From Bacteroidales bacterium (lineage in GTDB: Bacteria; Bacteroidota; Bacteroidia; Bacteroidales; JAAYUG01): a DNA stretch of 41,293 nt. The stretch covers positions 1-41,293 of the forward strand of contig JAAYUG010000169.1 in NCBI GenBank assembly GCA_012517825.1, read 5' to 3'. The translations under genes were made by a program, and so were the position numbers. Below are positions 6,887-26,480 of the stretch, piece after piece (position 1 is the stretch's first letter; every line of letters starts with the position of its first letter). Under the pieces are notes generated by a model that had not been told where the DNA came from, did not search any database, and saw nothing but the letters and a program-made list of their open reading frames with translations.

Positions 6887-6994
6887 CATCCTATTCTTTC
6901 TTACCCCACTGAATTGGCTTTCTGAAGCAAGTATCTTTCCGGAACAATACTGTTAACTGATCGCATTGATGGAGATGGTACGATCAGTTATGTT

Positions 6995-7019
6995 TATTTT
7001 TGTATATACATTTGCACAT
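6995..7019 (+). promoter_or_regulatory. GntR gene promoter with candidate auto-operator
   Basis: Two -7-like boxes are present: TATTTTTG (6995-7002) and TACATTTG (7007-7014). Overlapping them is TGTATATACATTTGCACAT (7001-7019), which matches 16 of 19 bases of the palindromic site at 7879-7897 in front of the next operon. It keeps the outer TGT...ACA inverted symmetry but is a weaker palindrome. This fits negative autoregulation by the GntR protein encoded 22 bp downstream, which is an inference. Confidence 0.5.
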
Positions 7020-7040
7020 TATTATAAGGTAGTATCCTCC

Positions 7041-7899: not shown

Positions 7900-7933
7900 A
7901 TAAAATAAAACAAAAACACTTAAACCAGTTTTT

Positions 7934-8818
7934 ATGAAACGTTTAACCAACTACATGCTGCAACTTAGTGTCTTTGCTCTTTTCATTGCCCTGGCAATGA
8001 CCTCCTGCAAAGATGAAGAAGAACCTGTGGCAACTGCCATTAGTATTGACAAAACGGTTACTCCCAAACTGAAGGTAGGGGAAGAAGCAACAGCCACCAT
8101 TACTATCGTAGCCGAAGGAGTAAAAGCCTTTAAGTATTACAAGGTGGTGGACGAAGTGAAGGGAACAGCCGTTGACGTTACCAGTCAGCTGGTAAAGAAC
8201 GGGAATACCTACACGTACAATTTTTCCTACACGGTACAGGAATTTGATGACCTGCATACCCTGGGATTTGAATTTGAAGTGACCGACAAAAAGGATCAGG
8301 TTAAGACAACGGCACTTGTTGTTGATGTATCACTCTCTGTTAAATCCTCTTTTGTCAAATACGACTGGAAAGTTACGGCAAGTGAATGGCTGGGGTTTGA
8401 TGTTCTTGCTCCTCACGATGCTGCCTACACATATCGTTTCCACCAGGATGGCACTTATGATATTGATATGACTGCACAATATGCTGACAGTACACACCAC
8501 TTCTGTTACTGGGTTTATAAAGAAACACCCAACAATGCCGATACAATTGCCATTCTCAGGTTGATACGCAAGCTCAGATCCGGTTCACAAGGCGTTGATG
8601 AGTATTATGATTACAAGATCACCAGTGCTACTGAATCCCAGATGATCATGTACTGGGATATTCCGGTTTTTGGATTGTATGGCATTAAGAACACCTTCAC
8701 CAGCCAGCCAAAAGGAGCTTTCCAGCCTTACGGAACAGTGGAGATGGCCAACGCGGTAGCCAATATTTCAGTACTAAGCTGCAGTACCGTTGATAATAAT
8801 CTTCTTACCATTCCCTGA
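7934..8818 (+). CDS. Surface-exposed lipoprotein of the SusCD locus, unknown fold
   Basis: The 294-residue protein starts with a lipoprotein signal peptide ending in LAMTSC, followed directly by KDEEE. Acidic residues right after the lipidated Cys are a known Bacteroidota signal for export to the outer surface. Residues about 35-135 look like a beta-sandwich of the PKD/Ig kind (alternating Thr/Val strands). The C-terminal half, from about residue 140, is rich in Tyr and Trp (YDWKVTASEWLGFDV) and could bind glycan. It resembles SusE/SusF-like binding proteins in layout but no family is recognised with certainty. It is unusual in coming first in the operon, before susC; SusE-like genes normally follow susD. 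Confidence 0.7.
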   Translation: MKRLTNYMLQLSVFALFIALAMTSCKDEEEPVATAISIDKTVTPKLKVGEEATATITIVAEGVKAFKYYKVVDEVKGTAVDVTSQLVKNGNTYTYNFSYTVQEFDDLHTLGFEFEVTDKKDQVKTTALVVDVSLSVKSSFVKYDWKVTASEWLGFDVLAPHDAAYTYRFHQDGTYDIDMTAQYADSTHHFCYWVYKETPNNADTIAILRLIRKLRSGSQGVDEYYDYKITSATESQMIMYWDIPVFGLYGIKNTFTSQPKGAFQPYGTVEMANAVANISVLSCSTVDNNLLTIP

Positions 8819-8831
8819 ACCTGTGGCGTCG

Positions 8832-8863: not shown

Positions 8864-8998
8864 TGATGTTCCATTTGCGCTGTGAAGAAAGGCTCTGTTA
8901 TAACCTGCAGCAAGAGACAGTTGCAAGGAATTCCACAGTGCGGGTAGCAATATTTTCCCGGACCACCGTCAAAGTCCACCGTGTTTATTCAACTTATT

Positions 8999-11900
8999 AT
9001 GAAAAAAATCACTTTCCTGCTGGGTCTGCTTTTGACCTTCAGCACAATGTTCGCACAAACCGTTACCATCAAAGGAAGAGTCGTTGACGAAAACAAGTCC
9101 CCGCTTCCGGGTGTATCCGTATTTGTGGAAGGTACAACCATCGGAACAACAACTGATCTGGATGGGAACTTTACCCTTTCCATTGACAGGGCCACCGTTA
9201 AGTATATTACCTTTTCCTTTGTCGGGTACAACAAAGTCAGGCAACCTGTTTCCGAGGGCATTACAGATTATCAGATCATGCTCACGCCGGAAATCACCAA
9301 TCTGGATGAAATTGTTGTAATAGGTTACGGAACTCAGCGTAAAAGCGATGTAACCGTTTCCATATCGTCGGTAAAGGCCAAGGACGTTGCCTCTCCCAGC
9401 GTGCTTTCGCTTGATCAGTCACTGCAGGGACAGGCAGCAGGTGTAGTAGTGTCACAATCGACAGGAAAACCCGGGGCACCGGTATCCATCCGCATACGAG
9501 GAACCACTTCCATTAACGGTTTGAATGAACCGTTGTATGTGATTGACGGGGTGCCTATCATTACCAATGCCTCTGATCTGACCAGCGGGACCATCCAGGG
9601 ATCGGATATCAATCCGCTTGTGGCGATCAACCCGAACGACATTGAATCAATACAGATTCTCAAAGATGCTTCTGCTACGGCCATATACGGTGCCCGTGGC
9701 GCAAACGGAGTAATTCTGATAACAACCAAGCAGGGCACCAAAGGCGACATGCAGGTAACCTTTAACTCTTCGGTCGGCTTGCAGCAAATTACCAAAAAGC
9801 TGGAATTGCTCAATGCCCGGGAACTGGCAGAACTGGGAAATGCTGCCGTAACCGAAGCCCGCAAATACTACCCCGATGTAGCCTATAATACTGCCTTTGC
9901 CCTGCCAAGCCGTTTCGGGAAAGGAACCGACTGGCAGGACGAAATCTTCAGGGTTGCCCCCATGACCAATTACCAGCTTTCATTAAGAGGTGGAAGTGAC
10001 AAAACCTCCTACTATCTGTCAGGCAACCTCGTAGAACAGGAAGGTATTATCAAAAACTCCGATTTTAGCAAAGGCACCTTTCGCCTGAACCTCGACAACC
10101 AGCTATCAGCAAAAGTCAGAACAGGAATCAATATCAACCTTTCGCGCAGTGTCAACAACGGAGTAACAACCGGAGTACCCAATACCCTGTCGAATGTGGT
10201 AACCATGGCTCTTCTTTTCAACCCGGGACAAAATGTTTACGATCCCGATCAGGAAGGAGGGTATACCTATGAAAGCAATACCATTAATAAAGTAGGCAAT
10301 CCGGTGGCCGAAATCAACGAAACCAAAACACGTATTACCACAAGCCGCGTGATTTCTGACGGGTATCTTGACTGGAAGGTCCTGAAAAACCTGACCTACA
10401 AGTTCAAATTCGGTATGGATGCTTTCTTTAACAAAGAACAGCAGTACATCCCCAGCTTTATTAAGAGGGGACAGGAAAAAGGGAAAGGCAATAATGTCAA
10501 TATTGATGGGTACACCTGGTTGATTGAGAATACGCTCACCTACGACCTGGAAGTTCAGAAACACAGGTTCAATTTCCTTCTGGGGCAAACCGCTCAGAGA
10601 TACGTCTCGGAATCGGCCGAAATCGCTGTTGAGCGGTTCAATGACGACCGTCTCGGATACTACGACCTGGGAGCAGCCATTGATAAAACCATTCTCACCG
10701 GGTACAACACATGGAGTATGCTGTCAGGAATTGCCAGGGTTATATACAATTACGACAACAAATATTATCTGACCGCTTCGGGAAGAACTGACGGATCTTC
10801 GAAATTTGGTGCACTGCATAAATTTGGATTCTTCCCTTCGGTTTCTGCCGCCTGGAGAATAAGCAAAGAGCCTTTCATGCAATCAGTCACCGCCATTAAT
10901 GATCTCAAATTTAGAATAAGTGCCGGAACGGTCGGTAATGAGGGGATCCCTCCGGGCAGTTCACTGAGCCTGATGGCCAACCGCCCTTACTTTTTCGGCG
11001 AAGGAGCCAATGCCAAAGTTATCGGAACCTATGTTTACTCTCTCGAAAATCAGGATCTGAAGTGGGAAGTAACAACACAGTATGATGCGGGGCTCGACCT
11101 CAGCCTTTTCGAGTCACGCATTGAATTCATCGCCGAAACCTATCTGAAAAACACCTCCGATCTTCTCCTGTATATCCCTGTAAATACTTCCTCCGGATTT
11201 CAGTTTGTTTGGGCCAATGTTGGCAACTTACAGAATAAAGGAATGGAATTTTCGGTCAACTCTGTCAATCTGAAAGAACAGTTCAAATGGAACACAAGGT
11301 TCAATATATCATTCAACCGGAATAAGGTCACCAACCTGGATAAATCGAGTACCATTTACGGAAATTCCATCATGAATATTGTTGACTGGACGATGATCCG
11401 CGAAGGAGAACCCATAGGCAATATTTACGGATACAAGTCAGATGGCATCATTCAACTGAATGAGGATCCCTCGTCTGTTCCTTTCTTCCCGTCAAAAATA
11501 CCGCGGTACGGCGACAGGAAGTATATTGATAAAAATCATGACGGGAAGCTGACCATTGATGATTACTTCAAACTTGGCAATACGAATCCTGATTTTTCAT
11601 GGGGTTTTAAAAACACTTTCACTTATAAGAATTTTACGCTCGACATCTACACTCAGGGAGATTACGGCAATAAGATTGTTAATTTTAACCGGTTCTTCCT
11701 TGAAAGCTTTGACGGATTCCAGAACAACTCAAAGGTAGCTTTGCAGCGATGGACAGAAACCAATCCGACCAATAAATATCCGCGGGCGAATGCCTCGCCT
11801 CACGGCAATGTTATGTCGGATGTAATTGTTGAAGACGGTTCCTATGCACGCCTGAAAGAGGTGACTCTTTCCTATACCCTTCCGGATAAAATTCTCGGAA

Positions 11901-12082
11901 AACTGCACATCAGAAGCGTTCAGCTTGCTCTCAGTGGCCGTAACCTGTACACCCTTACACGGTACTCAGGTTATGATCCCGAAGTCTCAATTTTCGGAGG
12001 CAGTGTTTATGGGAAAGGTGCCGATTATGGCCCATATCCTATGGCCAAAACATATCTTTTCTCACTCAACGTTACTTTTTAA
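8999..12082 (+). CDS. SusC/RagA-family TonB-linked outer-membrane transporter
   Basis: SusC proteins form the TonB-powered outer-membrane barrel through which SusD-bound glycan pieces enter the periplasm. The protein has 1027 residues from the Met at 8999, normal for the family. It has a signal peptide, a carboxypeptidase-regulatory-like domain (about 25-100, GRVVDENKSPLPGVSV), the SusC signature DEIVVIGYGTQRK, a plug domain with PLYVIDGVP and ATAIYGARGANGVI, and a long beta-barrel ending in an aromatic residue (LNVTF). susD follows after 11 bp. No N-terminal STN domain is seen, so signalling to an anti-sigma factor is unlikely, which agrees with control by the GntR protein. Confidence 0.97.
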   Translation: MKKITFLLGLLLTFSTMFAQTVTIKGRVVDENKSPLPGVSVFVEGTTIGTTTDLDGNFTLSIDRATVKYITFSFVGYNKVRQPVSEGITDYQIMLTPEITNLDEIVVIGYGTQRKSDVTVSISSVKAKDVASPSVLSLDQSLQGQAAGVVVSQSTGKPGAPVSIRIRGTTSINGLNEPLYVIDGVPIITNASDLTSGTIQGSDINPLVAINPNDIESIQILKDASATAIYGARGANGVILITTKQGTKGDMQVTFNSSVGLQQITKKLELLNARELAELGNAAVTEARKYYPDVAYNTAFALPSRFGKGTDWQDEIFRVAPMTNYQLSLRGGSDKTSYYLSGNLVEQEGIIKNSDFSKGTFRLNLDNQLSAKVRTGININLSRSVNNGVTTGVPNTLSNVVTMALLFNPGQNVYDPDQEGGYTYESNTINKVGNPVAEINETKTRITTSRVISDGYLDWKVLKNLTYKFKFGMDAFFNKEQQYIPSFIKRGQEKGKGNNVNIDGYTWLIENTLTYDLEVQKHRFNFLLGQTAQRYVSESAEIAVERFNDDRLGYYDLGAAIDKTILTGYNTWSMLSGIARVIYNYDNKYYLTASGRTDGSSKFGALHKFGFFPSVSAAWRISKEPFMQSVTAINDLKFRISAGTVGNEGIPPGSSLSLMANRPYFFGEGANAKVIGTYVYSLENQDLKWEVTTQYDAGLDLSLFESRIEFIAETYLKNTSDLLLYIPVNTSSGFQFVWANVGNLQNKGMEFSVNSVNLKEQFKWNTRFNISFNRNKVTNLDKSSTIYGNSIMNIVDWTMIREGEPIGNIYGYKSDGIIQLNEDPSSVPFFPSKIPRYGDRKYIDKNHDGKLTIDDYFKLGNTNPDFSWGFKNTFTYKNFTLDIYTQGDYGNKIVNFNRFFLESFDGFQNNSKVALQRWTETNPTNKYPRANASPHGNVMSDVIVEDGSYARLKEVTLSYTLPDKILGKLHIRSVQLALSGRNLYTLTRYSGYDPEVSIFGGSVYGKGADYGPYPMAKTYLFSLNVTF

Positions 12083-12093
12083 TTCCTTCCGCC

Positions 12094-13560
12094 ATGAAAA
12101 AGATGTTCATAGCAATTTCCGCGCTCCTTTTAGCAATTACCAGCTGCAGCGATTTTCTTGATTCGGACATACGGTCTGATTTTAATTACAACAATTATTT
12201 TCAGACTGAAAAAGACCTCGTAACCTTTGCCAACGGCATGTTTGGGGGTCTGATTACCTGGACATGGGAAGGAGGCGGATTATTCTTCAATAATTTCTGG
12301 GTAATTCAGGATCTGGCCTCCGATAATGCTTACGAAACAGGACCTTCCATCGACATGCACGATCTGTCTAACTTCACCTTTGATGCCAACAATGCTCCTC
12401 AGTTTTTCGTGTGGGAACAATCGTACAGTGTTATCAACTCATGCAACGTTCTGCTGAAGGAATCTGAAAAAATAAAAAAGTATTCGAGCGAAGCCGTAAA
12501 AAACCATCTGCAGGGAGAAGCCTACTTCCTCAGAGGAATGCTGTATTTTGAACTGGCAAAGCTTTTCGGAGATGTACCTCTTCAGCTTAAGGCAACAACC
12601 AGCGTGCAGAGCACCATCATTCCCCGCACTCCTGTAGCGGTAGTATATGATTCCATCATTAGCGACCTGAAAAAGGCAGAAGTTTATCTGGCAACCAACC
12701 CTTTTCCCAACAGAAAGGAAGGAATGCCAACCAGTCTGGCCGCATCAACCCTGCTGGCAAAAGTTTATCTTACCCGGGGCGCAATGAACAAAAGCCAGAG
12801 CGATTTTAACCTCTGCAAGACCCAACTCGAAAAGGTTCTCGGCAAATATACCCTCGAACCTGAATTCGCCGATATTTTCAAAATCAGCAATTCCAACAGG
12901 GGTGAAATTATCTGGGCTGTAAACTTCAGTGCCACTCTTGGAGAAGGATGGACTACCAATCAGTTCATTGTGCGGCTGATGCCCACCACCAAATCAGATA
13001 AAGGGGTTCGAAACGGACAGGGATGGGAAAGACCAACCAATTACCTCTATAATCTTTTTGCCAGCAATGATAAACGAAAAGCGGCAACCTTCATCACCGA
13101 ATTTGAGGGAGAAGTGTTCGACGGGCCGTACATCAGAAAATACTGGGATCAGGAAGCAGAAGGAGGCAGGCAGAATGGGGAATCGGACGCTGATTTCATT
13201 TACCTCCGCTACGCCGATGTTTTGCTGATGTATGCCGAAGTACTCAACGAAATCAATAATGGCCCCACTACAGAGGCATACAATGCAATAAATCAGGTGA
13301 GAAACCGTGCCGGCCTAGATGATCTGACACCCGGTCTGGATTATCAGGCATTCAAAAATGCTGTCCTTCAGGAAAGACAAAAAGAATTTGTCATGGAAGG
13401 ACATCGCTGGTACGACCTGGTTCGCATGAACAAGTTGCAGGAACAGGTGCTGCTGGCAAAACCTTCAGCCAACGTCAAATCGTACCATGTACTTTTCCCT
13501 ATTCCACAAAAGGAACTTTATTATAATCCTAAACTTGTTCAGAACCAGGGATATAATTGA
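12094..13560 (+). CDS. SusD/RagB-family glycan-binding lipoprotein
   Basis: SusD sits as a lid on SusC and binds glycan at the cell surface. The 488-residue protein has a lipoprotein signal ending in LAITSC followed by SDFLDSD, the usual SusD start. The middle is helical and TPR-like. The C-terminal family motif QERQKEFVMEGHRWYDLVRM is intact. Spacing to susC (11 bp) is that of a co-translated pair. The binding specificity cannot be read from sequence, because SusD binding residues are not conserved between loci. Confidence 0.97.
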   Translation: MKKMFIAISALLLAITSCSDFLDSDIRSDFNYNNYFQTEKDLVTFANGMFGGLITWTWEGGGLFFNNFWVIQDLASDNAYETGPSIDMHDLSNFTFDANNAPQFFVWEQSYSVINSCNVLLKESEKIKKYSSEAVKNHLQGEAYFLRGMLYFELAKLFGDVPLQLKATTSVQSTIIPRTPVAVVYDSIISDLKKAEVYLATNPFPNRKEGMPTSLAASTLLAKVYLTRGAMNKSQSDFNLCKTQLEKVLGKYTLEPEFADIFKISNSNRGEIIWAVNFSATLGEGWTTNQFIVRLMPTTKSDKGVRNGQGWERPTNYLYNLFASNDKRKAATFITEFEGEVFDGPYIRKYWDQEAEGGRQNGESDADFIYLRYADVLLMYAEVLNEINNGPTTEAYNAINQVRNRAGLDDLTPGLDYQAFKNAVLQERQKEFVMEGHRWYDLVRMNKLQEQVLLAKPSANVKSYHVLFPIPQKELYYNPKLVQNQGYN

Positions 13561-13613
13561 TTCAGCTCTCTGTTCAGCATCATGGTTTGATTGTATTTTT
13601 AAACTGCGTTGAT

Positions 13614-15380
13614 TTGAAACCGAATTTTAACAAGAGACCCTCCGTAAGGGTGACAGAAGACAGTAACGGATGTTTCAGCGGATGGAATGCTATTTTCAAA
13701 ACATTGGAAGCTAAACTGAAGGAACCTAACCATCCAAAAAAAATTGTAGTGGTTGAATGCTATCAGGGTGTTTATTATGACGACCTGCTGAGCATTTTTG
13801 GCAGTCATTTAAAACCCCGGCGCATCATTACCAGCAGGGACTATTTCCTTCCCCCCGGGGAAGTTGAAAGGATTACTTTCCCCGATGTTACTGATGACCG
13901 CATCTTTGGCTATCTGACAAGGCTCAATATGACCGATCTGGTGGACATGGAAAAAGTCAGTAAGTTGAAAAAGGAAGTCGAAGAAGCCGGCGAGGGGCTG
14001 ATTCTTATCTTTGGTTATGGGTCATCGCTCATTTCAGACCGGCCCTCCGTTCTGGTATATGCTGATATGCCACGGTGGGAGATTCAGTTAAGGATGCGGG
14101 CCAACAAAGTGGACAACCTCGGAATGGAAAACAAAGACGATTCCATTGAAGAAAAGTACAAAAGAGGATTTTTTGTTGACTGGAGAATATGTGACCGCCT
14201 GAAAAAGAAACTGATGCACCGGTGGGATTTTATCCTTGACTCAACGAACATGGAAATACCTGTGCTGCTTACCGCCGAAGCTTTCCGCAATGGATTGGAG
14301 AAAACCCTCACCCGGCCTTTCAGTCTTATGCCCTATTTCGATCAGGGGCCATGGGGCGGCCAGTGGATGAAAAGGTTTTGTGGACTTGATCCGGAACCAG
14401 AGAACTATGCCTGGTGTTTCAATTGTGTTCCGGAGGAGAACAGTTTGCTCCTGACTTATGGCGAAGCCGTTTTCGAAACCCCATCTATCAATCTTGTATT
14501 TGCCTACCCGCGTAAATTGCTGGGAGAAGCTGTCCACGCGCGCTTCGGTGATGAATTTCCCATCCGCTTTGACTTTCTTGACACCATGGAAGGAGGGAAC
14601 CTATCGCTCCAGGTGCACCCATTGACCGAATACATTCAGGAAAAATTCGGCATCCATTATACGCAGGATGAAAGCTATTATCTGATAGACGCAGCAGAAG
14701 ATGCATCTGTTTTCCTTGGTCTCAGGGAAGGAATCAATCCCGAAGCCATGATTGAGGAGCTTTACAAAGCCCAGGAAGAAGGTGTGTATTTTGATGCGGA
14801 AAAGTTCGTGGAGCGCTGGCCTGCAAAGAAGCACGACCACTTCCTTATTCCGGGAGGAACAGTTCATTGTTCGGGGAAAAACTGCCTTGTCCTCGAAATC
14901 AGTTCTACCCCATATATTTTTACTTTCAAGCTCTGGGACTGGGGAAGGCTTGGGTTGGACGGAAAGCCACGACCCATTAATATTGAACACGGCCGCCATG
15001 TTATTCAGTGGGACAGAACAACCAACTGGACGAAAAAAAACCTGATAAACCGGGTCAGAAAGATCAGCGAAGGCAACGGATGGTATGAAGAAGCCACCGG
15101 ACTTCATGAACGGGAATTTATTGAAACACGCAGACACTGGTTCACCGGAAAAGTACCCCATAATACCAACGGGGGTGTTAACGTGCTGAATCTTGTAGAA
15201 GGCCGTGAAGCTATCGTTGAAAGTCCTTCCGGAGCATTTGAACCATTTATTGTTCATTTTGCCGAAACCTTCATTGTTCCGGCCTGCGTAGGCGAATACA
15301 CTATCCGTCCCTACGGCGAATCAGAAGGCAAACAGTGCGCTACCATCAAAGCCTATGTAAGAACCTGTATCAATCAATAA
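13614..15380 (+). CDS. Two-domain class I mannose-6-phosphate isomerase-like protein
   Basis: The C-terminal part (from about residue 270 of 588) is a class I phosphomannose isomerase cupin. Its likely zinc ligands are Gln and His in SLQVHP (about residue 331), Glu in QDESYYL (about 352) and His in GTVHC (about 418). Such enzymes interconvert mannose-6-phosphate and fructose-6-phosphate in the cytosol. The N-terminal 200 or so residues (KKIVVVECYQGVYYDDLL, FPDVTDDRIFGYLTRLNM) look like a degenerate nucleotide/kinase-like domain without a GKS/T P-loop. The start is uncertain because no ATG is near. The TTG at 13614 gives a natural N-terminus (KPNFNKRPSVRV); a TTG at 13557 overlapping the susD stop is the alternative. 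It lies between susD and the sugar permease, fitting a catabolic step. Confidence 0.8.
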   Translation: MKPNFNKRPSVRVTEDSNGCFSGWNAIFKTLEAKLKEPNHPKKIVVVECYQGVYYDDLLSIFGSHLKPRRIITSRDYFLPPGEVERITFPDVTDDRIFGYLTRLNMTDLVDMEKVSKLKKEVEEAGEGLILIFGYGSSLISDRPSVLVYADMPRWEIQLRMRANKVDNLGMENKDDSIEEKYKRGFFVDWRICDRLKKKLMHRWDFILDSTNMEIPVLLTAEAFRNGLEKTLTRPFSLMPYFDQGPWGGQWMKRFCGLDPEPENYAWCFNCVPEENSLLLTYGEAVFETPSINLVFAYPRKLLGEAVHARFGDEFPIRFDFLDTMEGGNLSLQVHPLTEYIQEKFGIHYTQDESYYLIDAAEDASVFLGLREGINPEAMIEELYKAQEEGVYFDAEKFVERWPAKKHDHFLIPGGTVHCSGKNCLVLEISSTPYIFTFKLWDWGRLGLDGKPRPINIEHGRHVIQWDRTTNWTKKNLINRVRKISEGNGWYEEATGLHEREFIETRRHWFTGKVPHNTNGGVNVLNLVEGREAIVESPSGAFEPFIVHFAETFIVPACVGEYTIRPYGESEGKQCATIKAYVRTCINQ

Positions 15381-15391
15381 AACTTCTTTGT

Positions 15392-16558
15392 ATGAAAAGT
15401 AACCGGTCACTCAGGTACATGCTCCCAATCTTCATGTCGTTTTATGTCATGGGATTTGTTGATCTTGTTGGTGTTGCCACGGGATATGTTAAACGCGATT
15501 TTGGGCTTTCTGACAGTGTTGCCCAGCTTCTGCCCAGCATTGTCTTTATATGGTTTGCCTTATTTTCCATACCTACCGGCATTTTTCAGGACAGGAAAGG
15601 GAAAAAATTTACCGTTATTCTTGCCATGATGATAACCGGCCTCGGGATGATCCCGCCTCTGATTTATTATTCCTACTTTACCGCTGTGATCGGGTTTATG
15701 ATTATCGGTATCGGAAACACGATTCTTCAGGTTTCGGCCAACCCCTTACTACTGGACTACTCTTCCGATGAAACCAAGGCAGCAAATTTAAGTTTGTCGC
15801 AGTTTATCAAAGCCATAGCCTCCATGCTCGGTCCTGTGATAGTAGCCGGCCTGGCTAAATATACCGGAAACTGGAGGCTGGTATTCCCGCTATATGCCGT
15901 CATATCATTCCTCTCAGCTTTCTGGTTATACTCAATAAAAATTGAAGAATCCCGGCCGGAAAAAGAACCGGCTTCGCTCAAAACCGTTGTACAAATTCTC
16001 AAAAATCCTTTTGTACTCATTATGGTTCTGAGCATTTTCTTCCAGGTTGGATTTGATGTTTCCATGAACTCCAATATCGCCAATTATCTTAAAACCAGGT
16101 ACAGCATAAGCCTTGAAACAGCAAGCCTGGGAATCAGTATTTATTTTGCCTCCCTTATGGCCGGCCGGTTACTCGGCTCTATCCTCCTGAGAAAGGTCAA
16201 TACAAAGATATTTCTTATCACCAGTACGCTGGTTACCCCTGCCGGGTTGTTGGGCATTCTGGCTTCTCCAACGCTCCGGTTTACCTGGATTCTTATATTT
16301 ATCACAGGGCTGGGTTTTTCCAATATCTTCCCGCTGGTATTTGCCCTTACGGTAGAGCGTAAACCGGCCTACGCTAATGAAATTTCGGGCCTTGTCATTC
16401 TGGCGGTCAGCGGTGGAGCAGTTATTCCTCCGATAGCCGGCATACTGACCGAAAAATATGGTGTAACCTCAAGCATTTACGTTCTTATTTTCTGCACACT
16501 TTACACACTGTTTGCAACCTATTATTTATTACGCCAGAAACCTGCAACTAACCAATAA
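15392..16558 (+). CDS. MFS sugar permease, FucP/GluP (FHS) type
   Basis: The 388-residue protein is made almost entirely of hydrophobic segments, consistent with 12 transmembrane helices. The first helix contains MSFYVMGFVDLVGVATGYVKRDFGLS, and helix 4 has GIGNTILQVSANPLL, a signature of the fucose/glucose-galactose:H+ symporter group. A basic inter-helix loop DRKGKK fits MFS motif A. It probably carries a monosaccharide across the inner membrane with protons. The Met at 15392 is used because the upstream extension would overlap the ManA-like gene. The ROK kinase follows 18 bp later, so import and phosphorylation are likely coupled in expression. The exact sugar is not determinable. Confidence 0.9.
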   Translation: MKSNRSLRYMLPIFMSFYVMGFVDLVGVATGYVKRDFGLSDSVAQLLPSIVFIWFALFSIPTGIFQDRKGKKFTVILAMMITGLGMIPPLIYYSYFTAVIGFMIIGIGNTILQVSANPLLLDYSSDETKAANLSLSQFIKAIASMLGPVIVAGLAKYTGNWRLVFPLYAVISFLSAFWLYSIKIEESRPEKEPASLKTVVQILKNPFVLIMVLSIFFQVGFDVSMNSNIANYLKTRYSISLETASLGISIYFASLMAGRLLGSILLRKVNTKIFLITSTLVTPAGLLGILASPTLRFTWILIFITGLGFSNIFPLVFALTVERKPAYANEISGLVILAVSGGAVIPPIAGILTEKYGVTSSIYVLIFCTLYTLFATYYLLRQKPATNQ

Positions 16559-16576
16559 CAGATAAATTGTTATGCT

Positions 16577-17680
16577 ATGACCGATATCTTCAATGACAAC
16601 AGAATTGTTCTGACACTGGATGCAGGCGGCACAAACTTGGTTTTTTCTGCTCTGCAGGGTGGTCGCGAAATTGCAGGACCATTTACCTTTCCTACTCCTT
16701 CAGAAGATCTTGATGCCTGCCTGAAAACCATCATCAAGGGATTCAGAGAAGTGGAACAGCGCATTCCCGGAAAAGCCACAGCTATCAGTTTTGCATTCCC
16801 CGGACCGGCGGATTACAAAAAAGGAATTATTGGCGACCTTCCTAACTTTAAGGCATTTACTAACGGGGTTGCCCTTGGTCCCATGGTGGAAGACCTGTTT
16901 CACCTACCGGTTTTCATCAACAACGACGGCAATCTCTTTGCCTACGGAGAAGCTCTATGTGGTTTCCTGCCGGAATTGAATGCCAGAATTCTGAGCAGAA
17001 GAGGTATAAAACAATTTCATAATCTGATTGGCCTGACGCTTGGAACAGGTTTTGGATGCGGGGTGGTTATCAATAATATCCTGTTGATTGGTGACAACTC
17101 AAACGACACAGGTATCCATAATACCCTCAATAAATTCAATCCCGACTGGAACGCAGAAGAGAGCGTAAGTACCCGCGCCCTGCAACGGGTTTATGCCCAG
17201 GCTTCCGGTCAGCCTTTTTCCGGCAGAATCACTCCAAAAGACATTTTTGAAATCGCCACGGGAAAGTTGCCCGGAAACAAAGAAGCAGCCATTGAAGCCT
17301 ATCGTCAGTTCGGAGAAGCGCTGGGAAGTTCCATAGCCAACATCCTCACGCTGATCGACGGAATTGTAGTTATCGGAGGAGGAATTACAGGAGCCTGGCA
17401 GTTGTTTGCTCCTGCCATGTTCAGTGAAATTAACCGGCCGTACAAACGCTGGGACGGAACTCCTGCAAAAAGGCTTGATGTAAAGGTATACAACCTGGAA
17501 GATGAAAGCATCTTCAACGAATTTGCCATGGGAAACATCCGGGAACTGAAGGTGCCTTATAGCAATCGTATCGTTACCTATGACGAAAGAGCCAGAGTTG
17601 GGATAGGTTTGTCAAAGCTTGGTGCCAGCCGGGCCATAGCACTCGGAGCTTATGCCTTTGCCCTTCAGCAACTTCAATAA
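16577..17680 (+). CDS. ROK-family sugar kinase-like protein lacking the zinc motif
   Basis: This 367-residue protein has the N-terminal ATP/phosphate motif LDAGGTN, the catalytic Asp region FINNDGN, and the second phosphate motif LGTGFGCG, so the actin-like fold appears intact and active. The usual ROK zinc motif CXCGX2GCXE is absent; its place is taken by a segment containing NKFNPDWNAEESVSTRAL. That pattern marks a distinct ROK subgroup that I recall from other Bacteroidota. The start is 18 bp after the permease stop. The likely reaction is ATP-dependent phosphorylation of an imported hexose at C6, supplying the ManA-like enzyme. It has no helix-turn-helix, so it is not a ROK repressor. Confidence 0.85.
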   Translation: MTDIFNDNRIVLTLDAGGTNLVFSALQGGREIAGPFTFPTPSEDLDACLKTIIKGFREVEQRIPGKATAISFAFPGPADYKKGIIGDLPNFKAFTNGVALGPMVEDLFHLPVFINNDGNLFAYGEALCGFLPELNARILSRRGIKQFHNLIGLTLGTGFGCGVVINNILLIGDNSNDTGIHNTLNKFNPDWNAEESVSTRALQRVYAQASGQPFSGRITPKDIFEIATGKLPGNKEAAIEAYRQFGEALGSSIANILTLIDGIVVIGGGITGAWQLFAPAMFSEINRPYKRWDGTPAKRLDVKVYNLEDESIFNEFAMGNIRELKVPYSNRIVTYDERARVGIGLSKLGASRAIALGAYAFALQQLQ

Positions 17681-17730
17681 TTCAGAACTATATGCCTGCA
17701 ATTTTCAATTAACTTAATAAACCATCAGCC

Positions 17731-20058
17731 ATGCAGTATCGCACCTTATTCCTTTCTGCAGCTATTTTAGCAATGGTGGCAGCATGTACCGGAAAAGCGC
17801 CAAAAGAAGATGTATACAAAAACATTCCTTCGCTCGAAGATCTTTCAGGCCTATGGGTATCTACCGACACGGCAGAAATGGAACCTTCCATCAGGAACTT
17901 CCGTGGTCAGGCGCTTGTCAACAGAGACTTAGCCTCAATTAGCTGGTTTGTTTCAGCCCCCTATTCCGGAGGGTATCATACAGGCACTTTGCGGATTAAC
18001 GGAAAAACACCCAGGGTGAATGCCTTCCGCTGGCAACCTTACCAGGCTTTACGAAAAGGACAATTTGACGGCATCGACCTGATGAGTTCCACCAGAATGC
18101 TGTTTGACAAAGACGGCATTATGTGGCAGATTGAGATGAAAAATTCAACCAGTGAACCCAAAAACGTACAAGTGGATCTTGACCTTATCGGTTTTATCAG
18201 CAAGTACGGAGGTGACTGGCAATGGTGGTACCCTTATCCCAAAATGGACGGCAGCGTTACCAAACGCGATGAGGAAGTGGAAAATGTGAGAAAACATCTG
18301 GGTGAAGCGGTTCATCAGAAAGAAGGCTATCAGTGGGAACTGGTAAACGGAAAACCAGCCCTTGTGAAAGCTATGCTGAAATGGCCCACAGATGAAGAAA
18401 TCCTGAATGCAAAGAAGTACCATGCCCAAAACATAAATAATGACATTTATGTTTATGATCGTGAAACAGAGGCAAAAACAGCTTTCAGACTGGTAACAGC
18501 GCCCGATAAACTCATTGCCAGAAACAGCGGAGGTACAGCTTCCTGGAACTGGACCCTGGCTCCGGGTGAAACAAAAATCATCCGGTACGTAATGACATAC
18601 GGAGATGATGAAAAATCACTGCAGAAAAATCTGAATGAATGGACTGCCGACTTTGAATCTTCATTTAACAGCGTTCAGAAAGCGTGGGAAGAAAAATGGA
18701 ATATGATTTTCCGACCCAATAATCCTCTGATTTCAGGATGTTTCCCTGTACTTGAAACCAACGACCAGAAAGTAAAAAAGGTTTACTATGCTGGTCCACT
18801 GACCATGCTGTACCTTATAAATACAAACCTGCCCCAGCATAAAAAAGTTTTTCTTACCGGCGGACCCCGGTGGGGCGCCTCGATAACCTTTTTCTGGGAT
18901 ATCACCCTATGGTCAACACTCTGGGCCGTTGTCGACCCCGTAATGATGAAAGAACACCTTTCTTCCTGGATAAAGATCGACCCGAGCAAATATTACGGGA
19001 AAGACAATTTCGGAGGCAAGGGCGTCGGAAACGGCTATTCGGCCAATTACTGGGCGCTTTTCCAGATGATCCGCGATTATATTGCCGTAACAGGCGATGA
19101 AGGGTTCCTGCAGGATACCATCAACGGAAAGACAGTCCTCGGGCACCTTGAAGAGTATGCCCTGAACTGGAAAAAAATATCATTGTACGGACAGGAAGGT
19201 TGTACAGATGACGTATATAAACTGGCCGATTTTGGCGATGATGAATGGAATCTTCTGGAATGCGTTCCTACATATAAACATATCGTCCCTTCATTCAATG
19301 CAGGATATGCATGGATGATGCGCGAAATGGCCAGAATATATGAAAAGCTTGGAAACCGGGAAAAAGCTGCCGAGATGGACACCTTGGCCTCTGACATGAT
19401 TCAGCGTATCCTCAAACTCTATGCAGGAAACGGGGTCTGGTACAGCCTGTATCCAAACGGTAAAAAGATTGAAGTACGGCATTGCCTCGATTTCTTCTTC
19501 ATTGGCAAATACATTCCGAATGATGTCCCTGAGAATATCAGAAAGGAAATGATTGATTTTCTTTACCGTGAACTGATGGCTGATCATTGGATGAGGGCCC
19601 AGTCGGTAGACGATGTTGCCGCCGCACAATCTGACAGGCCTGACCATGGCCCTCTGGGAGCCTACGATGGCTGGCCGGCTGAAACGATGGATGCCCTCAC
19701 GCAGATGGGTTATCCTCAGAAAGCCCTTGACTTCTACCATGCCATTGAGCCCGTTACCTATGAAGGAATCTGGGCTCAGGCGCATGAACTTTGGGGAGAA
19801 AACAAAAAAACCAGTCATGCCAAAGTCCGGATTGCCGAACGAGGCTGGCATAACAGGGAATCCTCGGGCGGGGTTTCCCTTTCACAGGTCGTTCTGAAGG
19901 ATTTCTTCGGATTCTATCCACAAATTGGCGGGGAAGCTTTGCAGACTCACGGTCCTCTGAAACTGAGCGGAAAATTGTACCACGTTCTGTATAAAAATAC
20001 CTATTATACCCTTGTACTGGATAACGGAAAACCCAGAATGATCAGGGAAAAATTTTAA
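17731..20058 (+). CDS. Lipoprotein (alpha/alpha)6 glycosidase, MGH1/GH63/trehalase-like
   Basis: The 775-residue protein has a lipoprotein signal (LAMVAACTGK), then a beta-rich N-terminal region of about 330 residues, then an (alpha/alpha)6-barrel catalytic region. Motifs resembling those of GH63, GH37 and mannosylglycerate-hydrolase-like enzymes are visible: RWGASITFFWDITLWS (about 383-398, with an Asp in the position of the catalytic acid), DHGPLGAYDGWPAETMDAL (about 637-655) and ELWGENKKTS (about 686-695). These enzymes are usually inverting exo-glycosidases acting on alpha-glucosyl or alpha-mannosyl linkages. Family membership within this clan is not certain. It starts 50 bp after the ROK gene and probably acts in the periplasm or at the surface. 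Confidence 0.75.
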   Translation: MQYRTLFLSAAILAMVAACTGKAPKEDVYKNIPSLEDLSGLWVSTDTAEMEPSIRNFRGQALVNRDLASISWFVSAPYSGGYHTGTLRINGKTPRVNAFRWQPYQALRKGQFDGIDLMSSTRMLFDKDGIMWQIEMKNSTSEPKNVQVDLDLIGFISKYGGDWQWWYPYPKMDGSVTKRDEEVENVRKHLGEAVHQKEGYQWELVNGKPALVKAMLKWPTDEEILNAKKYHAQNINNDIYVYDRETEAKTAFRLVTAPDKLIARNSGGTASWNWTLAPGETKIIRYVMTYGDDEKSLQKNLNEWTADFESSFNSVQKAWEEKWNMIFRPNNPLISGCFPVLETNDQKVKKVYYAGPLTMLYLINTNLPQHKKVFLTGGPRWGASITFFWDITLWSTLWAVVDPVMMKEHLSSWIKIDPSKYYGKDNFGGKGVGNGYSANYWALFQMIRDYIAVTGDEGFLQDTINGKTVLGHLEEYALNWKKISLYGQEGCTDDVYKLADFGDDEWNLLECVPTYKHIVPSFNAGYAWMMREMARIYEKLGNREKAAEMDTLASDMIQRILKLYAGNGVWYSLYPNGKKIEVRHCLDFFFIGKYIPNDVPENIRKEMIDFLYRELMADHWMRAQSVDDVAAAQSDRPDHGPLGAYDGWPAETMDALTQMGYPQKALDFYHAIEPVTYEGIWAQAHELWGENKKTSHAKVRIAERGWHNRESSGGVSLSQVVLKDFFGFYPQIGGEALQTHGPLKLSGKLYHVLYKNTYYTLVLDNGKPRMIREKF

Positions 20059-20080
20059 TCATCGCAAGCACAAAACCGGA

Positions 20081-21484
20081 ATGAAACATACACATTTTAC
20101 TCTCCATCGGTTTTATCTGATCTCTCCGGGGGCCGTAGCTATCACCATAGCCTTCGGACCCGCCATTTCAGCCCAGTATGCCCTGACTCTTGCCCAGGAA
20201 CGGTTCGACAAATTCAATCAGGTAGAAAACGGATGGTGTGCTTCTGACGCTACCATTTCCCTGCCCCTGCCTGACGGAAAAACTCTGTGGCTTTTTGGCG
20301 ACAGCTTTATAGGGGAAAAAACCGGCACCTTCAGCATAAATCCGTCACGCTCACATATGATCAACAATTCGGTTGTTCTGGAAGATGCATCTTCACTGAC
20401 CGCCTATTACCAGGGCACTCTGGCAAACCCCTCCTCTTTTATTCCGGCTGACGGCAATGCCTTTTTCTGGCCAGAGCACGCGGTAATTGAAAACGATACC
20501 CTGAAGGTATTTGCCGTCAGAGTAACCTATTTTAACAACAATAATCCGGGCTTTAATTTCAAGGTAGGAACAACCTGCATTGCATATTACAAATACCCCG
20601 GACTGGCATACATTACCACAAAAAAAATTCCTTCCCTAACCGACACGACCATGCGTTTTGGCGCCTGCATCATCAGAAGCGGTGAATATACTTACATATT
20701 CGGTGTGAAAGACACTACCTCCAGCGGAATGACATGGCCTCTGCTTTATATGGCACGAGTAAGGCAAAGCGTGGATGAACCATGGGAATTTTATACAGGT
20801 TCCGATACCTGGTCAGGAGACTGCCGGAACGCCCGGCCTCTGGGAGACAGGCCCATGAGTGAATCCTTTTACGTATATGAAAAAAATGGTACCTTCTACC
20901 TGATAATGCATGAAATATGGCTGGTGGGAAAACTTTACATCCTGGAAGCGGATAAAATAACAGGCCCCTGGAACAGAGCTTCCTCGGGCGGTAAAGAAAC
21001 CCTGTTCGCGGTTATTAAACCCTATCCCAACCTGTTCAGCTATAATCTCTTCGCCCATCCACAGTTTACTAACGACGGGAAAATACTGATTTCCTTTAAT
21101 GTAAACACTTCTGATTTCTTTTCCATTTACAATGACACAAGAAATTACCGCGCCCGTTTTTACTGGCTTGATGTCGAAAATGCGGCTTCTGCTGTCATCC
21201 CTGACACCTTGTCCCTGCATGATGTTTATCCGAGCTTAGCTGACAACATTCAGGTGAAGGAACAGGGGAGAATTTCCTATTCACCCTTTACCCACTCCCT
21301 TCATATAACAGATGTTCCTTCCCCTTCCGTTTTGTCAGTCTACAGCTCTGATGGACGAAAACTGATGCAGGTTTACATTTCAGGCGACACGTTTGTTCCG
21401 GTTCCCATGTCGCCCTCCCGCTTTTTTATTGTCCGGCTCGAGGGAAAATGGGGTTCTGAAACCAGAAAAATCATTTCATATTGA
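20081..21484 (+). CDS. Secreted DUF5005/DUF4185-like beta-propeller protein with T9SS sorting domain
   Basis: The 467-residue protein has an ordinary signal peptide (ending near AISAQ), a core of about 375 residues, and a C-terminal domain of about 75 residues with the T9SS type A pattern (SVLSVYSSDGRKLMQ, then FFIVRLEG and ETRKIISY). The core shares ordered motifs with the two later paralogs: SDATISLPLPDG and WLFGDSFIG near the start, MINNS, FFWPEHA, YTYIFGVKD, WEFYTGSDTW, and YNLFAHPQF near the end. Repeated short strands with conserved Asp residues fit a five-bladed beta-propeller, the fold of several glycosidase families. A function on glycans is inferred from context. This is the only one of the three predicted to leave by T9SS. 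Confidence 0.7.
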   Translation: MKHTHFTLHRFYLISPGAVAITIAFGPAISAQYALTLAQERFDKFNQVENGWCASDATISLPLPDGKTLWLFGDSFIGEKTGTFSINPSRSHMINNSVVLEDASSLTAYYQGTLANPSSFIPADGNAFFWPEHAVIENDTLKVFAVRVTYFNNNNPGFNFKVGTTCIAYYKYPGLAYITTKKIPSLTDTTMRFGACIIRSGEYTYIFGVKDTTSSGMTWPLLYMARVRQSVDEPWEFYTGSDTWSGDCRNARPLGDRPMSESFYVYEKNGTFYLIMHEIWLVGKLYILEADKITGPWNRASSGGKETLFAVIKPYPNLFSYNLFAHPQFTNDGKILISFNVNTSDFFSIYNDTRNYRARFYWLDVENAASAVIPDTLSLHDVYPSLADNIQVKEQGRISYSPFTHSLHITDVPSPSVLSVYSSDGRKLMQVYISGDTFVPVPMSPSRFFIVRLEGKWGSETRKIISY

Positions 21485-21500
21485 TTTAACACCAGACACC

Positions 21501-22262
21501 ATGAAAAAAACAGTCCTTGTTACCGCTTTTATATTCCTGTTCATAACAGGATCATTCCCTGGAAATGCAAATGAACCAGATATTCTTTCTGCTGCTTCCT
21601 TTGCTCCAATGCAGGTAAAAGATACCACCCAGCTGAGCGCTGAGGAAAAGTTTGCCAAAGACATGGAAGAATGGAATAAAGCCCTGAAAGCTTATTACTA
21701 TCACAAAAAAGAACATTTTGAAACCTTGCCCAAATCAAAGAAAGACATAATTTTTCTGGGCAACAGCATTACCGACAATTGCGAATGGGCTGAACTTTTT
21801 GGCAATCCGCATATAAAGAACAGAGGAATCGGAGGGGATGATACCGAGGGAATCCTCGAAAGGCTCAGCGACATTACCTCCGGCCAGCCCGCCAAAATTT
21901 TTCTGATGATCGGAACCAATGATCTCGCCTTTGGTAAAACGGTAGATTACATTATTGCCAATTACCGGAAAATTATCACACGGATTCGTCAGGAATCACC
22001 CCGCACAAAGATTTATATTCAGAGCGTTCTCCCAACCGATGATGCTATCCACACCAACCGTAAAAATACCGACATCATCCTGATAAATGAAGGGCTGGAA
22101 AAACTGGCCCGGGAATTTTCACTCCCTTACATCGATCTTTTTAGTGCTTTCAAGACGGAAAACAATAAGCTGAACAGGGAATACAGCCTGGATGGACTGC
22201 ATCTGAACGGAAAAGGATATCTGCTCTGGAAAGACGTGATTGCCCGGTACGTCAGGGAATAA
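21501..22262 (+). CDS. SGNH/GDSL-family esterase
   Basis: The 253-residue protein has a signal peptide (MKKTVLVTAFIFLFITGSFP), a charged linker, and an SGNH hydrolase domain. All four blocks are present: GNSIT with the nucleophile Ser (about residue 89), GIGGDD with the oxyanion Gly, GTND (about 139-142), and DGLHLN with the catalytic Asp and His (about 231-236). Such enzymes commonly remove acetyl groups from sugars. The Met at 21501 is chosen because the open frame before it overlaps the end of the previous gene. Its place between beta-propeller paralogs suggests it strips ester decorations so that the glycosidases can act. Confidence 0.9.
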   Translation: MKKTVLVTAFIFLFITGSFPGNANEPDILSAASFAPMQVKDTTQLSAEEKFAKDMEEWNKALKAYYYHKKEHFETLPKSKKDIIFLGNSITDNCEWAELFGNPHIKNRGIGGDDTEGILERLSDITSGQPAKIFLMIGTNDLAFGKTVDYIIANYRKIITRIRQESPRTKIYIQSVLPTDDAIHTNRKNTDIILINEGLEKLAREFSLPYIDLFSAFKTENNKLNREYSLDGLHLNGKGYLLWKDVIARYVRE

Positions 22263-22444
22263 TTGCAGCCGCTGTGTTACAGAGGATATTTTAAAACATT
22301 CGTTTTTTAAGATCCCCTCAGACCATCAAAAAAGAAAAAAGAACCTGTAACGTTAACGTACTGATATATTGCCAAAGTAAAATCCTGAACATTGGCTTTG
22401 ATTATCTGATGAAGACAATTGAGGCAATACCAAAAAGAAAAATC
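22263..22444 (+). other. Intergenic region with 10-bp palindrome
   Basis: This 182-bp stretch (146 bp if the upstream Met at 22409 is the true start of the next gene) is the longest gap in the second half of the operon. It holds a perfect palindrome ACGTTAACGT (22350-22359) and a weak AT-only hairpin with a T run near 22291-22309. No TAnnTTTG box was found. An internal regulatory point is possible but unproven. Confidence 0.3.
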
Positions 22445-23653
22445 ATGAATTACACAATGCCCGTTTGGATATTTCTGGCTTGCAGTCTGGCTGCAGGCAG
22501 TTGCCGGCAGAAAACGGTTGCGGAAAGGCATTGCTCAGAGCCAAGTGATGTTCCTTTTCAATTTAGTGCAGAACCGGCTCCTGAATGGACTGCCCTGATG
22601 GAAAGAACCTCAGGCTGGTTCGGGGCGGATGGTATTTTTTCCATTCCCCTCGACGGTGTGGAAGAACAGGAAATCGCCGGCAAGAAAACGCTTTTCATCT
22701 TCAGCGATACGTATGTAGGCGAAGTTGTCAACCGGGTCCCCCTGCCCTGCAATGTGATGGTAAACAATTCATTGGCCTGGATGAAGGGATTTACACCCGA
22801 CACATCAGCCATCGTATTTGAATACAACAGGGACCGTTCCGGAAAACCTGTAGCCTTCTTTGTTCCGGATAACATAAACAGCAAACCGGGAGAATATTTC
22901 TGGCTGGGAGACGGGTTTATCAACCAGGAAAAAAACAACACACTATACCTTTTTGCCTACCATGTGCACAAAACAGGACCGGGAGTTTTTGACTTTGAAG
23001 CCACCAATGTAACCATTCTTAAAATCAAAAATCCCACCCCCGAAGGCATAACAGATTATCAGCAGATACCCACCGGCCTCGGATTTGTCCACCCTGCCCT
23101 GGGAAGAATATACTTCGGAAGCGGAATTCTGGTAAATACAGAAAAAGCAAAAGCTCCCTGCCCGGATGGCTACGTATATATTTATGGCATAGCCGAAGGC
23201 AAAAAATCTCTTCTGGCAGCAAGGGTGAGGCCGGAAGAATTTGAGGATGTTGACCACTGGACTTTCTGGAACGGATCTGACTGGGGTAAAAATATACATT
23301 CTGTTGCCCCAATAACTGACGGCGTTTCGAACGAACTCAGCGTGACCCCGACAGAGGATGGAAGATACTTCCTCACCTTTACCATTCTTGGAATATCAGA
23401 GAAAATCGGTATCGCTGTTGGGAAAAGCCCTGCAGGCCCTTTCGGAGACACAAAGGAAGTCTATACCTGCCCCGAATACAAGGAAAAGGGCCTCCTCACT
23501 TATAACGCAAAGGCTCATTATCATCTCTCCAAACCCGGCGAACTTCTGGTAAGTTATAATACCATTACCCTGAATTTCTGGGAAGATATCCAGAAGGATG
23601 CAACCATTTATCATCCCAGGTTTGTTAAAATTAAGTATCAGTTAGTTGAATAA
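22445..23653 (+). CDS. Lipoprotein DUF5005/DUF4185-like beta-propeller protein (second paralog)
   Basis: The 402-residue protein starts with a lipoprotein-type signal ending LAAGSC. A Met 12 codons upstream (22409) is an alternative start; the one used gives a normal signal peptide (MNYTMPVWIFLACSL). Motifs align in order with the other two paralogs: GADGIFSIPL and FIFSDTYVGEV, VMVNNS, YFWLGDGF, YVYIYGIAEG, WTFWNGSDW, and YNAKAHYHL. The last motif differs from the AHPQ of the other two, so the second His/Pro site is changed here. No T9SS domain is present. It is predicted to be anchored in the membrane as a lipoprotein. A glycosidase-like role is inferred only. Confidence 0.7.
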   Translation: MNYTMPVWIFLACSLAAGSCRQKTVAERHCSEPSDVPFQFSAEPAPEWTALMERTSGWFGADGIFSIPLDGVEEQEIAGKKTLFIFSDTYVGEVVNRVPLPCNVMVNNSLAWMKGFTPDTSAIVFEYNRDRSGKPVAFFVPDNINSKPGEYFWLGDGFINQEKNNTLYLFAYHVHKTGPGVFDFEATNVTILKIKNPTPEGITDYQQIPTGLGFVHPALGRIYFGSGILVNTEKAKAPCPDGYVYIYGIAEGKKSLLAARVRPEEFEDVDHWTFWNGSDWGKNIHSVAPITDGVSNELSVTPTEDGRYFLTFTILGISEKIGIAVGKSPAGPFGDTKEVYTCPEYKEKGLLTYNAKAHYHLSKPGELLVSYNTITLNFWEDIQKDATIYHPRFVKIKYQLVE

Positions 23654-23711
23654 TTTTACCACCCTGCCGCCTTGCTCTTCACCCTTTCATTACCCCATCA
23701 ACATTTCAATT

Positions 23712-24887
23712 ATGAAACACGTTCTTATGGCCATAAAAACCTCAGGGAAATTTCTTATCATCTTTTCAGTTGTCTTTTTTGCTTCCTGCCAGCGGGGAGA
23801 GGTAACAGTACAACCCGACAAAGAATTTTCTTCTATGTTTTACGCTGATTCCGGAGGAATATTATGTGCCGACGGTATTTTCTCCGTACCCCTGCCGGAT
23901 GGATCCTCTGTGTTTTTTGTTGGTGATTGTTTTGTGGGCAAACTGATGAACGGCGGCATTGATCCGAAAACACCGATGCTGAGAAATGCCTTTAACCTCA
24001 TCGACAAAAACATGGACGGGGCAAAGGCAATTATCGGAGGAACCCTGTCAGAACCACAGACTCTTATGGTGCCTCCCCGTTTGGAAAACGACTCGATTTA
24101 CCGTTGGTACTGGCCCGGCCATGGATTTACAAGAGGAGACACTCTGTTTGTATTTGCCCTGAGCCTTTATAATGACCCCTCCGCAATTAAAACTTCAGCA
24201 AAATCAGAAGAAGAAAAAGATGAAATGGACAAAATGGCGGCGGAAATGTTTGCGTTCAGAATTGCAGAAATTGACCTGCTGTCATACAAACTCCCCGGCT
24301 TTGTTCATCTTGCAACCCATAAAGTGGAATATGATTACAGGAAATACCCGATTGATTTCGGCAACTGCGTGATGATTGACAATGGGTACGTTTACATTTA
24401 CGGCACAAAAAATGAACCGCACTTTTCCAGGATTCATGTGGCAAGGGTTCCTCTGAACAGCAAGGTATTGTATAAAAACTGGGAATTCTTCAACGGTTCA
24501 GGTTGGGATACCAGTATTGCAGTTTCGGCTCCTGTTGAAACCGATATCTCCGTTTCGGAACAATTCAGCATCTTTAAATACCGCAATAAATACGTCCTGC
24601 TAACCATGGAGCGTGCGGGAACGGATATTTACACCTACACAGCCGATACGCCAACAGGAGTGTTTACCAATAAAAAATTCCAGTATCGTCCTCCTGAACC
24701 CGGACAGGATACCACCGGAAGAATTTTTGTTTATAATGCTCTGGCACACCCTCAATACATAAGGAACGACAAACTGCTGGTTTCATACTGCGTCAACTCA
24801 TTCCACGTGAGGGATGTTTACAGGAATGCTGAAAATTACCGGGCCAGGTTTTTGAGAATACCGATGAAAAATATTATCGGTAATTAG
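23712..24887 (+). CDS. Lipoprotein DUF5005/DUF4185-like beta-propeller protein (third paralog)
   Basis: The 391-residue protein has a lipoprotein-like signal ending FFASCQRGE. Shared family motifs are CADGIFSVPLPDG, FFVGDCFVGKL, YWPGHGF, YVYIYGTKN, WEFFNGSGWD and YNALAHPQY. The Met at 23712 is used because the upstream frame overlaps the end of the second paralog. Between the early and middle motifs it carries an unusual Lys/Glu/Met-rich insertion (SEEEKDEMDKMAAEM, about residues 160-175) that may form a helix and is absent from the sisters. It is the last gene of the operon on this strand. No obvious terminator follows before the convergent DUF2007-like gene 98 bp away. Confidence 0.7.
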   Translation: MKHVLMAIKTSGKFLIIFSVVFFASCQRGEVTVQPDKEFSSMFYADSGGILCADGIFSVPLPDGSSVFFVGDCFVGKLMNGGIDPKTPMLRNAFNLIDKNMDGAKAIIGGTLSEPQTLMVPPRLENDSIYRWYWPGHGFTRGDTLFVFALSLYNDPSAIKTSAKSEEEKDEMDKMAAEMFAFRIAEIDLLSYKLPGFVHLATHKVEYDYRKYPIDFGNCVMIDNGYVYIYGTKNEPHFSRIHVARVPLNSKVLYKNWEFFNGSGWDTSIAVSAPVETDISVSEQFSIFKYRNKYVLLTMERAGTDIYTYTADTPTGVFTNKKFQYRPPEPGQDTTGRIFVYNALAHPQYIRNDKLLVSYCVNSFHVRDVYRNAENYRARFLRIPMKNIIGN

Positions 24888-26468: not shown

Positions 26469-26480
26469 TCTCAGTTTTTT

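Follow-up and report, generated by a model that had tools for sequence, protein, structure and literature searches.

We analysed a 41,293-nucleotide stretch of DNA from a Bacteroidales bacterium (NCBI GenBank assembly GCA_012517825.1, contig JAAYUG010000169.1, positions 1 to 41,293), referred to below as the window, and focused on positions 20081-24887. This segment holds four genes: three encode propeller proteins, here called P1, P2 and P3, and the fourth, located between P1 and P2, encodes an SGNH esterase. Together they form the last part of an operon spanning 6966-24887, and the same gene set recurs in the genomes of over a dozen uncultured Bacteroidales. Coordinates are collected in Table 1; the starts of the SGNH, P2 and P3 genes were set by the same-genus ortholog, in which the longer open reading frame (ORF) starts are not conserved.

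Propeller paralogs, their active site and their export

The initial annotation of this segment, made from the sequence alone, had described three diverged propeller paralogs, which was borne out by pairwise BLASTP comparisons (E = 8e-19, 2e-31 and 1e-22; 25-28% identity); at this level of similarity the paralogy of P1, P2 and P3 is beyond doubt. The genome contains only these three members of the propeller family, and no real relative of P2 was found in phage records. Two matches on actinobacterial plasmids came without annotation. The motifs said to recur in the same order were seen in all three proteins, with the correction that P1 carries ASDATIS instead of ADGIFS.

Profile searches placed all three proteins in the same families rather than in unrelated ones. 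P2 and P3, with 50.7 and 45.7 bits, exceed the curated cut-off of 39.5 for DUF4185 (PF13810), while P1, at 27.3, falls under it; the match to DUF5005 is weak in each of the three and lies under its cut-off. A profile built from 40 relatives matched BACOVA_04882 (4hbs) with 3.6e-40, followed by EndoMA1 (8hhv) with 1.2e-12. The structure comparison suggested in the annotation gave the same order: a good-confidence model of P1, with a predicted local distance difference test score (pLDDT) of 88, was matched by Foldseek to 4hbs at rank 1 and to 8ic1 and 8hhv at ranks 2-3 (E 1.8e-14), that is, to solved DUF5005 and GH183 propellers ahead of GH43 and sialidases, and GH117 was not found among its top 50 matches. 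This model represents the least certain family member, P2 and P3 being placed in the fold by sequence. P1, P2 and P3 belong to the DUF4185/DUF5005 five-bladed propeller superfamily, home of the GH183 endo-D-arabinanases.

EndoMA1 uses Asp33 as nucleophile and Asp51 as acid/base, and Glu243 is its third essential acid (PMC10509167); in DgGH4185b, too, a pair of Asp residues 18 apart proved essential (PMC10115798). Equivalents of the three EndoMA1 acids, drawn from sequence, are present in every paralog. In an alignment of 91 relatives the first Asp is kept in 90/90 rows with a letter at that position and the second in 91/91; their spacing is 18 in P1 and P3, and P2 has a short insertion between them. 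The third acid, a Glu, is invariant in the three-way alignment of P1, P2 and P3 and was left uncounted in the 91-row alignment, where P2 is shifted by one column. The YN--AHP motif corresponds to Tyr293-His298-Pro299 of EndoMA1, in which Tyr293 stacks on the substrate (PMC10509167). The annotation had stated that P2 lost its AHP motif, and here it has to be corrected: P2 reads AHY, a change of Pro to Tyr alone, with the His and the substrate-stacking Tyr retained, and the idea that P2 is inactive through this altered motif was rejected for the same reason. Arg198 of EndoMA1, which holds the sugars at -3/-2, is replaced by non-Arg residues in P1, P2 and P3 in the alignment to 8hhv; another, invariant residue, Arg226, lies close by. 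The three paralogs are most likely retaining glycoside hydrolases with an Asp nucleophile and an Asp acid/base. The annotation's expectation of hydrolase activity agrees with a hydrolase-like active site.

The annotation had also assigned a type IX secretion system (T9SS) sorting domain to one protein and lipoprotein signals to the other two; this difference in export route holds, and the pattern is kept across species. Taken alone, the P1 tail is sub-threshold for the T9SS family (E 0.049). TIGR04183 was nevertheless matched in 12/14 P1 orthologs, a profile of the tail matched the solved T9SS tail 8glk_D with 1.6e-12, and the tails of the P1 orthologs in four of the loci (L046-L049) look canonical. 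The genome itself has SprA and 44 T9SS-tail matches. The P1 tail is a real, diverged T9SS type A domain, and P2 and P3 look like lipoproteins. P1-clade proteins all have about 83-101 residues beyond the propeller, and a simple pattern search, a crude one that missed some lipoboxes, found a lipobox in none of them; most P2- and P3-clade proteins have a lipobox, and they stop at the propeller end. Since relatives show T9SS tails in the P1 clade against lipoboxes in the P2 and P3 clades, the two export routes have stayed apart from species to species. P1, P2 and P3 are a clear case of paralogs divided between T9SS secretion and lipoprotein export, maintained over many species.

A tree of 91 propellers, built by a quick method with SH-aLRT (Shimodaira-Hasegawa-like approximate likelihood ratio test) support only, places the orthologs from the Bacteroidales loci in three separate supported sets, one each for P1, P2 and P3, with P2 relatives extending well outside Bacteroidales. 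Because each paralog forms its own old clade with conserved export, the three constitute an inherited three-part system. The Lys/Glu/Met-rich insertion that the annotation saw in P3 is real, with about 20 residues, although this composition is confined to the closest P3-clade members. The loop that contains it is 44-48 residues long in 10/10 P3-clade rows and 20-31 elsewhere. The insertion could reshape the substrate cleft, as it aligns with the Trp138/Pro141 loop of EndoMA1, which contacts the substrate.

A conserved cluster of mannose-type genes

The genes upstream of P1 comprise a regulator, a SusC/SusD pair, a long-form mannose-6-phosphate isomerase (PMI), a major facilitator superfamily (MFS) transporter, an ROK kinase and a lipoprotein of a family that we call U775. 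Among the genes that mark a mannose locus, SusC/D, PMI and ROK are all there; a linked GH92 alpha-mannosidase occurs in most relatives and not here. At most orthologous loci the SGNH domain is the C-terminal part of a GH92 fusion, and the window SGNH is 53-67% identical to this module. It stands without GH92 in the window, the same-genus relative, UBA4073 and UBA1064; their P1 proteins group together in a single sub-clade (support 82), so that a single GH92 loss or split would account for this simply. Neither GH172 nor fucose isomerase was found in the conserved cluster, and fucose isomerase was not found in this genome. The GH172 that the genome does encode was set aside as a D-arabinan partner, being unlinked. 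Because SusD models cross-match, the NanU-like score of the SusD protein was not taken to indicate sialic acid.

The U775 model, with a pLDDT of 57.5, is not good enough to place the protein; its top Foldseek matches are GH94 and then GH63 and GH116. Taken as a lead only, these matches make U775, at low confidence, a probable GH94/GH63/GH116-like (alpha/alpha)6 enzyme, possibly of an unassigned hydrolase family. The protein is highly conserved (66-92% identity among near relatives) and is split in two ORFs at two loci, L050 and L091.

Table 1. Features of the operon and of the propeller genes, in window coordinates
Feature	Position	Strand	Evidence or remark
GntR/UTRA regulator	6966..7769	+	Pfam GntR and UTRA; adjoins the cluster at orthologous loci too
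294-aa lipoprotein, SusE/F position	7934..8818	+	no Pfam match; orthologs occupy the same place
SusC-type TonB-dependent transporter	8981..12082	+	TIGR04056, 882.7 bits
SusD-type glycan-binding lipoprotein	12094..13560	+	PF07980, PF14322
600-aa long-form PMI, C-terminal type I PMI part	13614..15380	+	1qwr 7.7e-13, 1zx5 2.6e-8; start from same-genus ortholog
MFS sugar transporter	15335..16558	+	PF07690, gluP-like
ROK-family sugar kinase	16577..17680	+	PF00480
U775 lipoprotein	17731..20058	+	no Pfam or PDB sequence match
P1	20081..21484	+	DUF4185/DUF5005-type propeller; T9SS type A tail at the C-terminus
P1 T9SS type A sorting domain, diverged	21263..21484 (residues 395-467)	+	all-beta domain in model; ortholog TIGR04183 matches; 8glk_D
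SGNH/GDSL acylhydrolase	21501..22262	+	PF13472 6.3e-28; homologous to C-terminal module of relatives' GH92-SGNH fusions
P2	22445..23653 (ORF from 22409; start 22445 likely)	+	DUF4185 propeller, predicted lipoprotein; PF13810, lipobox region
P3	23712..24887 (ORF from 23646; start 23712 likely)	+	DUF4185 propeller, predicted lipoprotein; PF13810, FFASC lipobox
P3 loop insertion K182-M201, ~20 residues	24189..24248	+	in loop that holds Trp138/Pro141 in EndoMA1 (alignment to 8hhv)
Nucleophile equivalent (EndoMA1 Asp33)	P1 Asp56 20246..20248; P2 Asp74 at 22628; P3 Asp76 at 23871	+	18-residue spacing in P1 and P3, as in EndoMA1
Acid/base equivalent (EndoMA1 Asp51)	P1 Asp74 20300..20302; P2 Asp100 at 22706; P3 Asp94 at 23925	+	alignment
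EndoMA1 Glu243 equivalent	P1 Glu261 20861..20863; P2 Glu309 at 23333; P3 Glu305 at 24558	+	three-way alignment; profile alignment to 8hhv

We sampled 396 Bacteroidota genomes, 23 of which had DUF4185 matches, and examined gene neighbourhoods in a set of 23 genomes, made up of 19 of the DUF4185-positive ones (the weakest three and the window's own excluded) and four closer relatives. The long isomerase occurs as a single copy in 17/23 of these genomes and lies within 12 kb of DUF4185 in 17/17. It lies within 10 kb in 16, against 0.14 expected under random placement, and GH92 lies within 10 kb 13 times, against 0.41 expected; this expectation ignores contig ends, and the counts overstate independent events because the genomes are related, the 17 isomerase genomes spanning twelve family codes. 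Conversely, none of the 13 GH172 genes and none of the 15 fucose-isomerase C-terminal domains in the 23 genomes lies within 20 kb of DUF4185 (0/13 and 0/15), the genome-wide search not extending to GH116; in one genome (G387), GH172 and fucose isomerase are 1.04 Mb away from it. A separate DUF4185 branch adjoins GH38 alpha-mannosidases and U775-like proteins, and a plasmid of Hymenobacter sp. DG25B (L069, 2235-13038) carries a version of the locus outside Bacteroidales, in the order SusC-SusD-ROK-PMI-MFS-DUF4185-esterase-DUF4185.

Several further observations were made around these loci. An oxidative sugar pathway (UxuA or enolase-type dehydratase, SMP-30 lactonase, SDR, FAA hydrolase) is encoded beside P2/P3 relatives in more distant Bacteroidota (L084, 6185-9895; L094, 2337-7762; L054, 5865-9656; L085, 11686-15458); it may point to mannose or to some other aldose, and we gave it no weight as evidence. 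In one genome (G009; L043, 244-4205), the orthologous locus has URO-D family proteins (PF01208) and a GH29 alpha-fucosidase at its flanks and a third URO-D inside, and in another (G042; L028, 15388-16953) a sulfatase (PF00884, SGSH_C) between the P1 ortholog and GH92-SGNH hints that the glycan may be sulfated in that case. In the window, downstream of the operon, ORF 26481-27191 is overlapped by an ORF in another frame (27148-27543) with a T9SS tail at its end (31 bits), so that 26481-27543 looks like one secreted-protein gene broken by a frameshift; the same-genus relative lacks the region 25776-27543 between its P3 gene and the one that follows.

Proposed role of the locus and alternative explanations

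The simplest account, to which we give a probability of roughly 60%, is a mannose-releasing utilisation locus whose three GH183-like retaining hydrolases each split a different linkage in a single esterified glycan that contains mannose. P1 would be passed through the T9SS to the outside, whereas P2 and P3 would be lipidated and held in a membrane, facing the surface or the periplasm, and the three would jointly take the glycan apart while the SGNH esterase strips acyl groups. SusC/D would bring fragments in, U775 and, in relatives, GH92 would free mannose, the MFS protein would transport it inward, and the ROK kinase and PMI would route it to fructose-6-phosphate. That the three share out the work on a single glycan, as the annotation suggested, is reasonable in view of a single family, a hydrolase-like site and a split in export kept across species. 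The annotation's hint at endo-D-arabinanase activity finds no support in the context; the cluster lacks GH172 and fucose isomerase and is built on PMI, an ROK kinase, an esterase and, in relatives, GH92 or GH38.

Several points weigh against this proposal: the DUF4185 enzymes tested in two studies are all endo-D-arabinanases (PMC10115798, PMC10509167); GH92 is missing from the window's own locus, the genome's one GH92 being unlinked; mannose could be one of several sugars in the glycan; and gene neighbourhoods show association, not substrate. The main alternative, clearly less likely, is that P1-P3 are true endo-D-arabinanases that open the lipoarabinomannan of mycolic-acid actinobacteria, of which the bacterium keeps the mannose only. 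All characterised DUF4185 proteins cut the D-arabinan of arabinogalactan or lipoarabinomannan (PMC10115798, PMC10509167), and lipoarabinomannan holds D-arabinan, mannose and acyl groups, so that GH92, esterase and DUF4185 would fit together. The lack of GH172 and fucose isomerase in the conserved cluster and near DUF4185 in the surveyed genomes, the lack of fucose isomerase in this genome and the unmatched Arg198 of EndoMA1 argue in the other direction. The missing D-arabinose exo-enzymes and isomerase in the cluster, like the missing fucose isomerase in the genome, speak against the use of D-arabinose, not against an endo cut.

That P1-P3 act on furanose side chains (galactofuranose, for example) of a galactomannan from fungi or bacteria, and thereby give alpha-mannosidases access, appears improbable. 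In its favour, GH183 is a retaining family active on furanosides, P1-P3 have preserved the catalytic pair and alpha-mannosidases are neighbours; yet galactose-specific genes were not seen recurring in the cluster, and the tested DUF4185 enzymes left D-galactan uncut (PMC10115798). We give very little weight to the idea that the paralogs include one or two pseudo-enzymes which bind glycan instead of hydrolysing it: the strong divergence and the Pro-to-Tyr change of P2 would suit it, whereas all three proteins retain both catalytic Asp residues and the third Glu, and the Asp pair is conserved throughout the aligned relatives.

Returning to the proposed mannose-releasing locus, we advance a broader view tentatively, at somewhat less than even odds: most DUF4185/DUF5005-type propellers of Bacteroidota may make up a so far undescribed branch of glycoside hydrolases acting on mannose-containing glycans, in which three paralogs, differing in linkage specificity and export route, would work in one conserved locus together with U775, itself an enzyme family without assignment. 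The only activity known for GH183 is on the D-arabinan of the mycobacterial wall; if most Bacteroidota relatives do act in mannose loci, labelling their DUF4185 proteins automatically as endo-D-arabinanases would be an error, and these propellers and U775, both groups of enzymes with no assigned activity, would gain a short list of candidate substrates. No description of this locus type was found in the open-access literature.

Comparison with known systems

The characterised GH183 enzymes (EndoMA1, 8hhv/8ic1; DgGH4185a/b; Rv3707c) share with the window proteins the DUF4185 domain (past the cut-off in P2 and P3), the five-bladed propeller, the Asp-Asp spacing of 18 in P1 and P3 and equivalents of Glu243 and the stacking Tyr293. 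They differ in that identity in the structural alignment is 17%, the Arg198 position is not retained in P1-P3, and the window cluster is of mannose type, without GH172 or fucose isomerase partners. BACOVA_04882, a putative hydrolase of the DUF5005 family, is the best match by both profile and fold, although P1-P3 remain under the DUF5005 cut-off, and no reported function for it was found in the literature. GH43 and other five-bladed propeller hydrolases share the general fold, GH43 being among the next Foldseek matches, but these matches are far weaker, and GH43 enzymes are inverting, their acid standing at another position (PMC10509167). Another known system is the D-arabinan locus PUL42 of Dysgonomonas gadei, likewise a Bacteroidota utilisation locus with DUF4185 enzymes (PMC10115798); PUL42 has GH172 and fucose isomerase, whereas the window locus, without D-arabinose genes, has PMI, an ROK kinase and an esterase.

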